Assembly: GCF_001536285.1 (NCBI RefSeq)
Contig: NZ_FAOZ01000042.1
Coordinates: 1-64,000 of the forward strand
DNA from: Parafrankia irregularis
Lineage (GTDB): Bacteria > Actinomycetota > Actinomycetes > Frankiales > Frankiaceae
Reading direction: 5' to 3'
DNA: 64,000 nt
The notes beneath the pieces are model-generated. The model was given only the letters and a program-made list of their open reading frames with translations. It was not told where the DNA came from and ran no database searches. Position numbers and translations under genes: made by a program. Of the stretch, positions 2,286-7,259 are shown piece by piece. Position 1 is the first letter of the stretch. Each line of letters starts with the position of its first letter.

Positions 2286-3140
2286 CTAGTCCCGCTGCAC
2301 CCGCGGCAGCGGGACGGCGCCGTGATGCGAGGTCAGCCCGCCGTCGGCGACGAGCGTCGTGCCCGTGATGTAGGAGGCCGCCGCGGAGGCCAGGAACCAG
2401 ACGGCGCTGGCCTGCTCGTCCGCACGGCCCCAACGCTGCAGCGGGATCCGCTGGCTGCTGGCCTCCACGACCGCCGGCTGCGACAGGTACGGGGCCATCA
2501 GCGACGTCTCGGTCAGGCCGGGCGCCACCGCGTTCACCCGGATGTTCTGCGCCGCGTAGTCGACCGCCGCGGCCCGTACCAGATTGATCACCGCGCCCTT
2601 CGACGCGTGGTAGGCCCAGTTGCCGGGATCCGCCTGCAGCCCACCGCTCGACGCCGTCACGACGATCGAGCCCCCGCCGCCGGCCCGCAGCGCCGGTGCG
2701 ACCGACCGGATGCCGATCGCCACACCACGGACGTTCACGGCGAGGATCCGGTCCAGTCGCTCGATCGCGCCGTCGGCCTCCCAGGGCACGGTCCCGCCGA
2801 TGCCGGCGTTGAGGACGGCCACGTCCAGACGCCCGAAGCTGGCGAGCGCGAGCTCGGTCATCCGCGCGCCGCACTCCGGCGTCGAGACGTCCGCGACCAG
2901 CGTGACCAGCCGCGGGCGAACGGCTCCGTCGAGGCAGGCAGCGGGCTGCGACGCAGGCGGGGCGGGCGGGGCGGAGGAGGCAGGCGGTTCCGCGGAACCG
3001 GCGTCCGCGGCCAGATCTGCCAGCCCGGCCTCGTCCGCGTCGACCGCCACCACGCCGAACCCGCGGGCGGCGAACAGCTCGACGCAGGCCCGGCCGATGC
3101 CGGAAGCGGCTCCGGTGATGACGACAGCCTGGGCGACCAC
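2286..3140 (-). CDS. SDR family oxidoreductase
   Basis: A classical short-chain dehydrogenase/reductase of 284 residues using NAD(P). The nucleotide-binding motif TGAASGIG is at residues 9-16, NAG is at 111-113, the catalytic Ser is in TASSGG (164-166), and the Tyr-Lys pair is Y177/K181 in YHASK. The C-terminal VADGGL is typical. The start is a GTG 4-5 nt after GGAGG. A Pro/Ala-rich insert at about residues 49-72 lengthens the loop after the second strand and is unlike the compact family norm. The gene converges with the P450, so the two may act on one substrate, but that is only inference from position. Confidence 0.9.
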   Translation of the reverse strand: MVAQAVVITGAASGIGRACVELFAARGFGVVAVDADEAGLADLAADAGSAEPPASSAPPAPPASQPAACLDGAVRPRLVTLVADVSTPECGARMTELALASFGRLDVAVLNAGIGGTVPWEADGAIERLDRILAVNVRGVAIGIRSVAPALRAGGGGSIVVTASSGGLQADPGNWAYHASKGAVINLVRAAAVDYAAQNIRVNAVAPGLTETSLMAPYLSQPAVVEASSQRIPLQRWGRADEQASAVWFLASAAASYITGTTLVADGGLTSHHGAVPLPRVQRD

Positions 3141-3281: not shown

Positions 3282-4331
3282 TCAGGCCGCCACGGCAGAA
3301 ACTGTCGAACCGTCAGCCATCCCTGCGGCACGAAGCCCGGTACCGCCCAACGTGGGCCGGCCGGCGATGCTGCGCGGCTGCTGCCGGGCAAGCTTGCCGG
3401 CGATCTGATCAGCGATCAGCTGCAGCCGTTCTATCGGCGGGGCCGGGTCGTAGCTCGTGTAATTAACGGTCACCTTGACGTGATCGACGAGGAAGAAGAG
3501 GGTGTCCGTCGCGATGTCGTAGGTGATTCCCCGGCCCCGTGCCTGCGTCGTCATTCGCACGTACCCGGTGGCTCCGGTCGGCGCCGGGGGGCTCAGGGTC
3601 CCGGTCAGCTGATATTCGAGCTCGTCGTCGCCGGCGGCGTTGCGCGCGTCCATTCTGGCCTGGGTCTCCTGGCCCAGGCAGTCCGCGAACCAGGGATTGG
3701 ACCACATCACAGTATCGAAAACAGCCTGCTTCTCGGTCACTATCTCGGCGCCGGAAATGATGACCGTTCCGTCGTCATTGTCACTCACGAAGGTCGCGCC
3801 GAGAGCGGTTGCCTCGGGCTCGTTGTCGAGGTCCTCCGCCGACAGGCCGACGCAGTCCGCGAACTCAGGTGAGTACTGTTCCACGGACTGGGCAGCGGCG
3901 ACGGCTTCGGCGGCGGCATCGGCATCGATGGGCACACCGGTGAAGCCGGCTGTCGCCGGGCCCTCGGTCAGCACAAAGTCCTCGGGCCACAGACCCAGCG
4001 CGCTCGGCGCTGACGTGGCGGGCCCCGGCGACGAACCAGCGCTCGACGAGGCCGTTCCCGAGGTGACCGCGGGTTCGGGCCTCCCAGTCGTGTCACCGTC
4101 ACCTGAGCACGACGAAACGGTGAACGCGATGACCGCCAGGAGAATCCCGTGGCGCTTCAGCGGGAGCAGTCGCGGTCGACTCCCGGGGACCGAGGGCAGC
4201 ACCTGGCCCGCGGTGTCCTTCTTCAGAACGGCATCGTGGCCCGCGGCCGACCCGCCTCGGGCCTCGGCCACCGCCCGTCCACCCAGTCGAAACAGATCAC
4301 GAACAGCCATGTCTCGCCCACCCCCACGCAT
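3282..4331 (-). CDS. Putative lipoprotein, single-domain paralogue
   Basis: I do not recognise the family. A hydrophobic segment at about residues 62-72 ends in TVSSC (Cys75), a plausible lipobox, followed by a Ser/Thr/Pro-rich linker and a domain of about 220 residues. That domain holds two FADC-type cysteines, an EIVTEKQA motif and the terminal block RLQLIADQIAGKLARQQPRS. The reading frame leaves an unusually long n-region; a GTG start around residue 44 would give a normal signal peptide. The protein is clearly homologous to both halves of the neighbour at 4417-6030, so the locus grew by tandem duplication. It is probably an exported, membrane-anchored protein of unknown role; the paired cysteines could form a disulphide. 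Confidence 0.7.
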   Translation of the reverse strand: MRGGGRDMAVRDLFRLGGRAVAEARGGSAAGHDAVLKKDTAGQVLPSVPGSRPRLLPLKRHGILLAVIAFTVSSCSGDGDTTGRPEPAVTSGTASSSAGSSPGPATSAPSALGLWPEDFVLTEGPATAGFTGVPIDADAAAEAVAAAQSVEQYSPEFADCVGLSAEDLDNEPEATALGATFVSDNDDGTVIISGAEIVTEKQAVFDTVMWSNPWFADCLGQETQARMDARNAAGDDELEYQLTGTLSPPAPTGATGYVRMTTQARGRGITYDIATDTLFFLVDHVKVTVNYTSYDPAPPIERLQLIADQIAGKLARQQPRSIAGRPTLGGTGLRAAGMADGSTVSAVAA

Positions 4332-4354
4332 GCCAGCGCCGACACAACCACCGG

Positions 4355-4392
4355 CGCCCGCAACGTCACGAGAACGCTACGGGCGCACCGGT
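4355..4392 (-). terminator. Imperfect hairpin after the fused lipoprotein gene
   Basis: The arms GCGCCCG...CGGGCGC enclose CGTCACGAGAACG. The sequence is a degenerate version of the perfect hairpin at 6222-6268, and both lie just past a minus-strand stop codon, so it fits a transcription terminator. Confidence 0.5.
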
Positions 4393-4416: not shown

Positions 4417-6030
4417 TCAGGCCGCCACCGGAAGCACGGTCGAGTGGCCGGCATCTCCTGCGGCACGGAGCCCGGGACCGCCCGACGTGGGCTGGCCGGC
4501 GATGCTGCGCGGCTCCTGCCGGGCCAGCTTCCCGGCGATCTGGTCAGCGATCAGCTGCAGCCGTTCCATCGGCGGGGCCGGCTCGAGGTTCGTGTACGTG
4601 ACATTCACCTTAACGCGACCAACACGGAAGAGAAGGATGTCCCTCGCCATGTCGACGGTGACCCCCTGGCCTCGTATCTGTACCGCCAGGCGCACGTACC
4701 CAGCGGCTCCGGTCGGCGCCGGGAAAATCTGGGCCCCGGTCAGCTCGTATTCAAGCCCGTCGTCGTCGACGACGGGCCCGTCGGCTTCGGCCTGGACCTC
4801 CTTGACCATGCATTCCTCGAACCGGGGATGAGCCAGCAACGCGCGATCAGCGGCGGCCTGTTTCTCGGTCACCACTTCGGCGTATGACTCGATCGTCAAG
4901 GGCCTGTCATCGTCGCTCACGAAATTCAGTCCGTCATATGCGGCCTCGGGCTCATATCCGAGGTCTTCCGCCACCACGCCAAGACAGTTCGAGAGCTCGG
5001 CGGAGTTCAGCTCGGCCGAGCTCACCTCGTCGGCATCGGCGGGGGCACCAGTGAAGCCGGCCGTCGCCGGGCCTTCGGTCAGCACGTAGTCCTCGGGCCG
5101 CAGACCCAGCGCACGCGGCGCTGACGTGGCCGGTCCCGTGGGCCGGCCGGCGATGCTGCGCGGCTGCTGCCGGGCAAGCTTCCCGGAGATCTGGTCAGCG
5201 ATCAGCTGCAGCCGATCCATCGGCGGGGCCGTCTCGTAGTTCGTGTACGTGACGGTCACCGCGACGTGATCGACGATGAAGACGAGGGTGTCCACCGCCA
5301 TCTCGTAGGTGAAATCCTGCTCTCGCACCTGCAACGTCACACGCAGGTACCCAGCGGCTCCGGTCGGCGCCGAGGGACGCTGGACCCCGGCCACCTGATA
5401 TTCGACCCCGTCGCCGTCGGCGCCGGACTCGTCGATTCGGGCCCGGGTCTCCCTGCCCGTGCAGTCCGCGAACCGGGGACTGGCCCACATCGCGCGGACG
5501 CCAGCGGCCTGCTTCTCGGTCACTATCTCGGCGTAGGACGAGATGAACGAGTCCCCGTCCTCACTCACGAAGGTCTCGCCGACAGCGGTTGCCTCAGGCT
5601 CGTAGTCGAGGTCGGTCGCCGACAGGCCGAGGCAGTCCGCGAACTCAGGGGTGTACCGTTTCGCGGGCTGGTCACCGGCGGTATTGGTCCCGGCGGGAAC
5701 GCCGGTGAAGTATGTCGTCGCCTCACCCTCGGTCAGCACGTAGTCCTCGGGCCACAGACCCAGCGTGTTCGGCGCCGACGAGGCCGTTCCCGAGGTGACC
5801 GCGGTCTCGGGCCTCCCGGTCGTGTCGCCGTCACCCGAGCAGGACGACACGGTGAACGCGATCACCGCCAGAAGAAGCCCGTGGCGCTTCAGCGGGAGCG
5901 GTCGCGGTTGACTCCCAGGCACCGAGGGCGACAGCTGGCCCGCGGCCGGGCCGCCCCCGATCTCGCCCGGCGCCCGACCACCCAGTCGAAACAGATCGCG
6001 AACAGCCACGTCTCGCCCACCCCCACGCAT
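4417..6030 (-). CDS. Putative lipoprotein, tandem two-domain fusion
   Basis: Family unknown. The N-terminus matches the downstream paralogue (MRGGGRD, then PLKRHG and a lipobox ending TVSSC at Cys64). After that come two homologous domains, at about residues 90-298 and 309-512 by this start. The first domain ends RSIAGRPT and passes straight into GPATSAPRALGLRPEDYV, which is the linker seen before the single domain of the paralogue. The second domain has no signal peptide of its own. This is best explained by fusion of two tandem genes with loss of the inner start and signal region near position 5136. Each domain has two conserved Cys and a conserved EKQA block. An upstream in-frame start at 6084 exists, but 6030 aligns with the paralogue. 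Confidence 0.72.
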   Translation of the reverse strand: MRGGGRDVAVRDLFRLGGRAPGEIGGGPAAGQLSPSVPGSQPRPLPLKRHGLLLAVIAFTVSSCSGDGDTTGRPETAVTSGTASSAPNTLGLWPEDYVLTEGEATTYFTGVPAGTNTAGDQPAKRYTPEFADCLGLSATDLDYEPEATAVGETFVSEDGDSFISSYAEIVTEKQAAGVRAMWASPRFADCTGRETRARIDESGADGDGVEYQVAGVQRPSAPTGAAGYLRVTLQVREQDFTYEMAVDTLVFIVDHVAVTVTYTNYETAPPMDRLQLIADQISGKLARQQPRSIAGRPTGPATSAPRALGLRPEDYVLTEGPATAGFTGAPADADEVSSAELNSAELSNCLGVVAEDLGYEPEAAYDGLNFVSDDDRPLTIESYAEVVTEKQAAADRALLAHPRFEECMVKEVQAEADGPVVDDDGLEYELTGAQIFPAPTGAAGYVRLAVQIRGQGVTVDMARDILLFRVGRVKVNVTYTNLEPAPPMERLQLIADQIAGKLARQEPRSIAGQPTSGGPGLRAAGDAGHSTVLPVAA

Positions 6031-6221
6031 GCCAGCACCGGCACAACCACCGGATGCCTCCCGCGCGGCAGGCACACGCAACATACGTGCTCTATCGGGA
6101 CGGAAGGACAGCGAAGCTATCAGACTGCTGTCAGCCCGCTGTCAAATGACTGTCAGCGGACCCAATGAAGATCGGTTAGAATCGATATTTCACTACCAAT
6201 AACCACCAGAATGCCAGGCAA

Positions 6222-6268
6222 AATCAATGCGCCCGCAACGTCACGAGAACGTTGCGGGCGCATTGATT
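6222..6268 (-). terminator. Perfect 20-bp hairpin after transglycosylase gene 2
   Basis: The arms 6222-6241 and 6249-6268 are perfectly complementary over 20 bp with a 7-nt loop (CACGAGA). The hairpin lies 15 nt past the minus-strand stop at 6284 and is followed by a short T run on that strand. It is a strong intrinsic-type terminator. Confidence 0.8.
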
Positions 6269-6283
6269 GCCGCATACTGTGGA

Positions 6284-6670
6284 TCAGATCTTGCCGCCCC
6301 AACAGCTCTTCGAGGCATACCAGGGGCTGGTGCCCTGCTGGGCGTACAGGATGTGGGCACGCTTCCACTGCTCGGCGGCACTGGCGTTCTGCGGCAGGCC
6401 CTGGCCGCCGACGGCGTGCCAGGTGCCGGGCATGAACTGGAACAGGCCACCCGCGCCGATCGAGTTCACCGCGCGGGGGTTACCGCCCGACTCGCAGGGA
6501 ACAACCGCGCTCAGGAAGCGGTGTGCGTCCGGCCGGGCAGCGGCGCTCGCCGGCTGGGACATCGCGATACCACCACCGATCGTCGCGGCAAGCACCGGTG
6601 CGACGAGCAGAGCGCGGCCCCGACGGATGGAACGACGGTTCTTGCGGGCAGCCGAAACCATAGCGGACAA
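6284..6670 (-). CDS. Secreted transglycosylase (Rpf-like)
   Basis: Full-length copy of the gene at the window start: a 128-residue exported muralytic enzyme. A basic n-region (RKNRRSIRRGR), a hydrophobic stretch (LLVAPVLAATIGGGIA) and an AxA-type cleavage site precede the catalytic domain with PCESGGN, GGLFQFMPGTW and QWKRAHILYAQQG, ending SCWGGKI. The TTG at 6670 lies 7 nt after GGAAGGA, while the ATG at 6661 lies 16 nt after it. The same TTG is conserved in copy 1, so TTG is preferred. A c-di-AMP riboswitch upstream and a perfect hairpin downstream delimit a single-gene unit. Probable role: local peptidoglycan remodelling during growth or spore outgrowth, shut off when c-di-AMP is high. Confidence 0.9.
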   Translation of the reverse strand: MSAMVSAARKNRRSIRRGRALLVAPVLAATIGGGIAMSQPASAAARPDAHRFLSAVVPCESGGNPRAVNSIGAGGLFQFMPGTWHAVGGQGLPQNASAAEQWKRAHILYAQQGTSPWYASKSCWGGKI

Positions 6671-6679
6671 AGTTGTGTC

Positions 6680-6905
6680 CTTCCCCCACGCCTGCGAAGT
6701 TAGCTGTCGGGTTCGGGCTAGGGAATCGCCCGGCCGACCGGCGCGTTCAGATCGCGCCCGGTGGCTTCACCCCTGAGGACGTCCGAAGAGAAGGCTCATT
6801 CGACGTCCGGGAACCTGGGTCCCCCGCCCCTGCCTGCGGTTCTGTTAATCACCGGGTGTGGCAGGGTTCGGCGTGCCACCCGATGCGCGCTCCCCAGGTC
6901 GGAAG
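6680..6905 (-). promoter_or_regulatory. ydaO/yuaA-type c-di-AMP riboswitch, copy 2
   Basis: The minus-strand leader contains GGGGGACCCAGGTTCCCGG, CAGGGGTGAAGCCACCGGGC, and ACCCGACAGCTAAC followed by TCGCAGGCG and the purine-rich ribosome site. These are the conserved blocks of the ydaO class. The layout is the same as in copy 1, while the stem sequences differ and partly compensate. Boundaries are approximate. Confidence 0.88.
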
Positions 6906-7259
6906 CACGGCCAAGACGTTACACACGAACCGCAAACCATTTCAAAGCCTTTGTGACGAGCGCCACATCCGGCACTGCGGCCTTGAATTCCACCGGCATC
7001 GCGTCCCCTCGGCCGCATATTCACCGTTTCCTCCCGGCGTCATTCGGCCAGGGTCAGCGATTCGGCACTATCGGTCGACCCGACCGCCACGCAAGGTGCG
7101 CGACGCGTTCGTGCCCGCGACCGAAATTCCGGCCGCGGCGACGAAGAATCTTCCTGAACCGAATTCCGACACATCATGAAGTCGACCGTTTTCGACCGCG
7201 CGGCGGGACGACGGCGGGGGTGATCGGCCGGACGGCGACGGAGGCCGGCAAAGGCCGGA
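6906..7259. other. Intergenic region upstream of riboswitch 2
   Basis: No gene is convincing here. The stretch probably holds the riboswitch promoter (the AT-richer part around 6920-6960) and the end of the XRE transcription unit. No strong hairpin was found. Confidence 0.4.

Follow-up and report, generated by a model that had tools for sequence, protein, structure and literature searches.

Gene F, carried on the minus strand of a 64,000-nt stretch of the genome of the soil actinobacterium Parafrankia irregularis (the whole stretch is referred to as the window), encodes one lipoprotein signal (...AFTVSSC) followed by two full copies, FN and FC, of a domain of about 210 residues. We read F, with a probability of roughly 75%, as the derived product of a fusion between adjacent and already diverged lipoprotein gene copies, which placed two domains on one anchor; the fusion is considered derived because all other ORFs of the family examined in Frankiaceae genomes are single-domain and because relatives carry tandem arrays of separate genes. 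Tandem-gene fusion is an already known kind of event, of which F is a clear but fairly ordinary example; the lipoprotein family that carries the F domain is unnamed and largely limited to the Frankiaceae.

On the minus strand, in the order of transcription, an rpf-like gene (6284-6670, with a transglycosylase-like domain at E 3.8e-15 in a Pfam search) is followed by F, by its single-domain paralogue S, and by an SDR gene (2286-3140). The relevant parts of F and S are:

4417..6030, minus strand: F, fused two-domain lipoprotein gene (537 aa from the ATG at 6030)
5839..5841, minus strand: lipobox cysteine of F (VSS/C), after a long n-region and GLLLAVIAFT
5149..5781, minus strand: FN, first domain of F (profile match, E 2.5e-97)
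5134..5139, minus strand: fusion junction in F, where the codons ACG (tail, 5137-5139) and GGA (linker, 5134-5136) meet, with a 2-nt parental overlap
4498..5124, minus strand: FC, second domain of F, without signal peptide (profile match, predicted model)
3282..4331, minus strand: S, single-domain paralogue (349 aa; domain 3363-4013; lipobox cysteine 4107-4109)

A first-pass annotation of this DNA had described F as one reading frame with two domains. This agrees with the ORF check and with hmmsearch, which returns two full-length matches in F (positions 1-208 and 2-208 of the 208-position model), so that FN and FC are homologous over their full length. The frame is open up to an ATG at 6084, and GTG 6009 is also a possible start. 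The lipobox was recognized by eye from the lipobox consensus: VSSC, with the signal peptide and cysteine of bacterial lipoproteins, is present in F, in S, and in the corresponding gene of Parafrankia sp. EUN1f. The cysteine at 5839..5841 marks the sole signal peptide in F, and a comparison of the F and S sequences confirms the proposal that the inner one is absent. The C-terminal tail that follows FC (4420-4497) is similar to the tail of S. At the DNA level the repeat blocks between S and F measure 109-300 nt (63-90% identity), and the three copies FN, FC and S can be aligned along their whole length (300 nt at 79-80%, the remaining blocks at 63-90%), far above chance. The linker of FN (window 5760-5800) is about 11 residues shorter than those of S and the EUN1f gene, an in-frame difference separate from the fusion, and the variable loop of FC contains a 15-nt in-frame tandem repeat of 2.7 copies (window 4994-5033).

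The first domain of F ends in ...PRSIAGRPT, matching the RSIAGRPT given earlier, and alignment also bears out that the second begins with GPATSAPRALGL, the equivalent of the linker GPATSAPSALGL of the neighbouring gene S. To the left of the junction F is identical to the S tail at 24/24 aligned bases, through ...GGCCCACG; the tail common to S and F reads ...CAGCATCGCCGGCCGGCCCACG, where F goes on GGGACCGGCCACGTCAGCG.... To the right, starting at CGGG, F tracks the linker of S; after two mismatches the sequences are identical over a long stretch. The 3' end of one copy is therefore joined to the 5' part of another with loss of the inner start and signal, as expected of a fusion of tandem duplicates. 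The crossover had been placed at about 5136, in agreement with the position 5136/5137 that we find, and had been attributed to a GGGCC microhomology, which does not hold up: in register the parents overlap by 2 nt, CG only, while GGGCC sits in the tail and its linker copy is 9 nt out of register. A crossover at this motif was considered and rejected: GGCCC is present in both parents, but the resulting gene would come out 9 nt too short. Because the parents have diverged since the fusion, their exact endpoints are not recoverable. Since the locus is repetitive and the genome is a 9.5 Mb draft in 82 contigs, a short-read assembler could in principle have produced F by collapsing three tandem genes; such a collapse, however, would require extended identity at the junction, where the parents share 2 nt in register, and the halves of F are only 58% identical in protein, with the frame open across the join, all of which makes an assembly artefact highly improbable.

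Among the family ORFs examined (103 partly redundant ORFs and the ORFs of 17 further loci), F is the only one with two full domains, and every other one, across three genera, is single-domain; ORF structure was checked on the fetched loci, a subset of the matches that includes the pairs of neighbours on one strand. The domain family is nearly confined to the Frankiaceae: 91 domain matches occur in 19 of the 35 genomes of the family and order, all six genomes of the genus have a match, and class-wide a match is found in 15/296 genomes, 14 of these 15 belonging to the Frankiaceae. Sequence searches of Pfam, NCBIfam and PDB returned nothing usable for the domain. The EUN1f genome has exactly one single-domain gene between the same neighbours. 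The same rpf/SDR locus of P. colletiae holds four single-domain genes around the SDR gene; this lipoprotein array lies between two rpf copies, and in the window rpf-like genes (28-612 and 6284-6987) are likewise found on both sides of a P450-SDR-lipoprotein block. Another genus of the Frankiaceae has recurrent tandem arrays of separate family genes, some with overlapping or abutting frames; in each of four such arrays (L087, L088, L089, L090) the domain match of one member is split by an insertion. The single-domain ORFs and the P. colletiae array identify separate genes as the ancestral state. Orthologues in which the two-domain form is ancestral, which would contradict a fusion, were looked for in the family ORFs of relatives and not seen; as all other ORFs examined in the three genera are single-domain and nothing was found in favour of the opposite polarity, we regard it as extremely improbable that the single gene arose by a later split or loss. 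The unfused gene order FN-FC-S was not found in any genome examined, and excerpts of the literature on Parafrankia/Frankia, PknH/LpqN, TiME and tandem lipoprotein gene fusion yielded no report of gene F. As a separate observation, EUN1f carries another member of the family, its coding sequence divided between two frames (L033 4633-5620; contig G004:C377, about 24.6-25.6 kb), approximately 53 kb from the orthologous locus: it is probably a frameshifted pseudogene, groups with the P. colletiae copies C2 and C4 in the tree, and is perhaps the relic of a larger array.

The order in which the copies diverged was studied with a protein tree of 52 domain rows, from which duplicate sequences and domain hits spanning fewer than 150 model positions were left out. 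The tree has the form (((S,EUN1f)100/99,FN)100/97,FC)100/100: the fused halves are not sisters, and FC joins S/FN/EUN1f before any P. colletiae copy. With all codon sites, the AU test (IQ-TREE) rejects each of the alternatives FN+S (p = 0.0033), FN+EUN1f (p = 0.0034) and FN+FC (p = 0.0018), while the SH test keeps FN+S and FN+EUN1f (p = 0.0545) and rejects FN+FC (p = 0.0386); third codon positions alone reject no alternative topology (AU p = 0.095-0.125). Among the 35 informative sites for S, EUN1f, FN and FC, S is paired with EUN1f at 30; of these, 23 show the outgroups C1, C2 and C4 siding with FN/FC and 2 show them siding with S/EUN1f, the other 5 being unresolved (the P. colletiae copy C3 was left out of both this count and the topology test). 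The codon-model dS values are 0.16 for S-EUN1f, 0.26 for FN-EUN1f, 0.30 for S-FN, 0.64 for FN-FC and 0.69 for S-FC, and those of four flanking orthologues between the window genome and EUN1f are 0.18-0.41.

These results bear on two further explanations of F. The linker and domain of a single gene could have been duplicated in place in one step, with S arising separately and no need for three tandem genes; the junction would then have the same geometry, tail end to linker start, and FN and FC are indeed kept as sisters by third positions alone (AU p = 0.095). The grouping of FN with S and EUN1f and not with FC, both in the protein tree and with all codon sites, and a dS between FN and FC about twice that between S and FN, nevertheless render an internal duplication unlikely. 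Alternatively, FC or a part of it could have been imported by recombination from another lineage, in which case its depth would reflect the import and not an old tandem copy. The identity of FC to S is mosaic (57-70% mid-domain, but 90% over the first 20 codons) and the copies appear to exchange 5' sequence, as an import might predict; against this, FC joins S/FN/EUN1f with 100/100 support ahead of any P. colletiae copy, and the 35 genomes searched contain no closer donor, so that we consider an import quite improbable.

From the dS values, the tree and the site polarity together it follows that FC had already branched off when the two genomes separated, whereas the divergence of FN from S is about as old as that separation or slightly older. 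Because FC diverged before the genomes split, EUN1f has probably lost copies, and its single gene would represent a reduced state. To read strains as a series of one, two and then three genes would mislead, as the single gene of EUN1f groups with S, and the FC lineage is older than their split; the case exemplifies a trap, in that the single-gene relative has probably been reduced to this condition and did not start from it. All dates are blurred by gene conversion among the copies: over roughly their first 375 nt the genes S, F and that of EUN1f all resemble one another to much the same degree, which is not true of the gene bodies, and this suggests exchange between tandem copies in the 5' region. 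In comparisons involving FC, omega is 0.44-0.50, indicative of purifying selection; for FN versus S and EUN1f it is 0.77-0.84, not distinguishable from 1, values that give no evidence of selection on the N-terminal domain of F. Diversifying selection between S and FN was considered on account of the Nei-Gojobori estimates (dN 0.230 > dS 0.186), but was rejected, as the codon model (F3x4) gives an omega of 0.77, not different from 1.

If F arose as we propose, by fusion of neighbouring copies, the locus would first have held a tandem row of three or more genes, FN, FC and S among them, before a single non-homologous deletion of about 460 nt joined FN to FC in frame. Provided that the parents were built like S, this deletion would have taken out the 22-residue tail together with its stop codon, the spacer of 85 nt, and some 102 codons for the signal and first linker. 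The earlier description of F as a duplication-fusion intermediate is well supported in that a gene was duplicated and a later fusion removed the inner signal peptide, in keeping with the single-domain ORFs elsewhere and the four genes of P. colletiae, although the word intermediate is too strong. Likewise, the collapse of three tandem copies to one fused and one single gene fits the tree, in which FN and FC are not sisters, but no unfused genome was found among those examined and third positions reject nothing. Three elements accompany the two genes:

6229..6262, no strand assigned: hairpin HP1, after rpf and before F in the direction of transcription
6117..6155, minus strand: four TGACAG-type repeats with 11-bp spacing, upstream of F, an inferred response-regulator-like box
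4354..4387, no strand assigned: hairpin HP2, a copy of HP1 in the gap from F to S, some 23 nt ahead of the ATG of S and lacking a T run

Only these two sites in the genome match the HP1/HP2 core within 3 mismatches, and both hairpins fold strongly (z −9.1 and −3.6, respectively); HP2, being a copy of HP1, is a mark of tandem duplication. The TGACAG box is conserved upstream of the EUN1f gene, and the segment is missing before S. A search with three units and up to one mismatch found it nowhere else in the window genome or in EUN1f; there is one further match in genome G002, for which the reversed control gives an equal count. An 11-bp repeat spacing suits regulators of the OmpR/PhoB type, and the repeats may be a response-regulator box of this kind. 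Transcription of F would then start at a promoter close to the box; S, where the upstream segment is missing, would depend on read-through or on another promoter.

Structure prediction suggests what the domain may do. The model of the S domain (pLDDT 83, 9 alignment rows) has its best match in the PknH sensor domain (PDB 4esq; Z 11.0, rmsd 4.0, 169 aligned). Next come mycobacterial TiME (Z 10.4, rmsd 4.1, 162 aligned) and, at Z 9.2 (rmsd 4.0, 159 aligned), an orthologue of Rv0999; PsbP and LpqN follow at about Z 8 (LpqN, Z 8.2). Foldseek ranks PsbP first, at low TM-scores of about 0.3-0.4. FC was predicted alone, as in alignments of whole F nearly all rows fell on one half. Its model (pLDDT 75.6) gives a list much as for S (PknH sensor domain, Z 10.6, rmsd 3.7, 161 aligned; LpqN, Z 8.1), and its fold is intact as modelled. 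The domain is accordingly predicted to have the PsbP/Mog1-like fold of LpqN and of the PknH sensor-domain family, the likeness to the latter being one of fold in two predicted models: S and F give no PknH-type Pfam match even at E 10, nor do the 9 alignment rows up to E 1, and S, FN and FC each have two cysteines within the domain, not the four of the two PknH disulfides. The PknH sensor domain is reported to contain two disulfides together with a large cleft in which a small ligand may bind (PMC3601408), and LpqN is a proposed link between MmpL3 and periplasmic proteins (PMC7458404). Because of these fold matches and reported roles, F and S can be inferred to be extracytoplasmic, lipid-anchored and ligand- or partner-binding. 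Tethered together by a single lipid anchor, the two F domains would lie outside the membrane as a pair of cleft domains of the PknH-sensor/LpqN-like kind, and might bind a small envelope ligand or a protein partner. A more ambitious scenario, which we offer as a doubtful one, is that PknH-sensor-like lipoproteins restricted to the Frankiaceae expand by tandem duplication near rpf, and that here a deletion created a two-domain receptor whose diverged clefts bind different ligands under a box unique in the genome, the third copy having lost that control.

F is of value as an instance in which the formation of a bacterial multidomain surface protein can be read off: the junction, the parental linker and tail, and the unfused relatives are all visible. 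It also draws attention to a domain family without a Pfam or NCBIfam model, with a predicted fold common to mycobacterial envelope sensors, that could be named and tested.

Among known systems, the extracellular sensor domain of PknH from M. tuberculosis resembles the S and FC domains in being an extracytoplasmic actinobacterial domain, and is the best structural match of both; it differs in that identity is 12-14% with no Pfam match, and in that the domains described here have two conserved cysteines, a lipid anchor and no kinase. LpqN/Mtc28 and the Rv0999-type envelope proteins of mycobacteria (6e5d, 4pws, 4tmd) are likewise secreted or lipid-anchored and of the same fold class, but with Z near the level of common arrangements and no sequence relation detected (no PDB sequence hit). 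We know of no fused pair of this domain among the mycobacterial proteins of that type. The lpl cluster of S. aureus (PMC4470592) also consists of clustered tandem lipoprotein gene copies; its protein family is unrelated as far as known, and in the window, unlike in that cluster, two of the copies appear to have become one gene.
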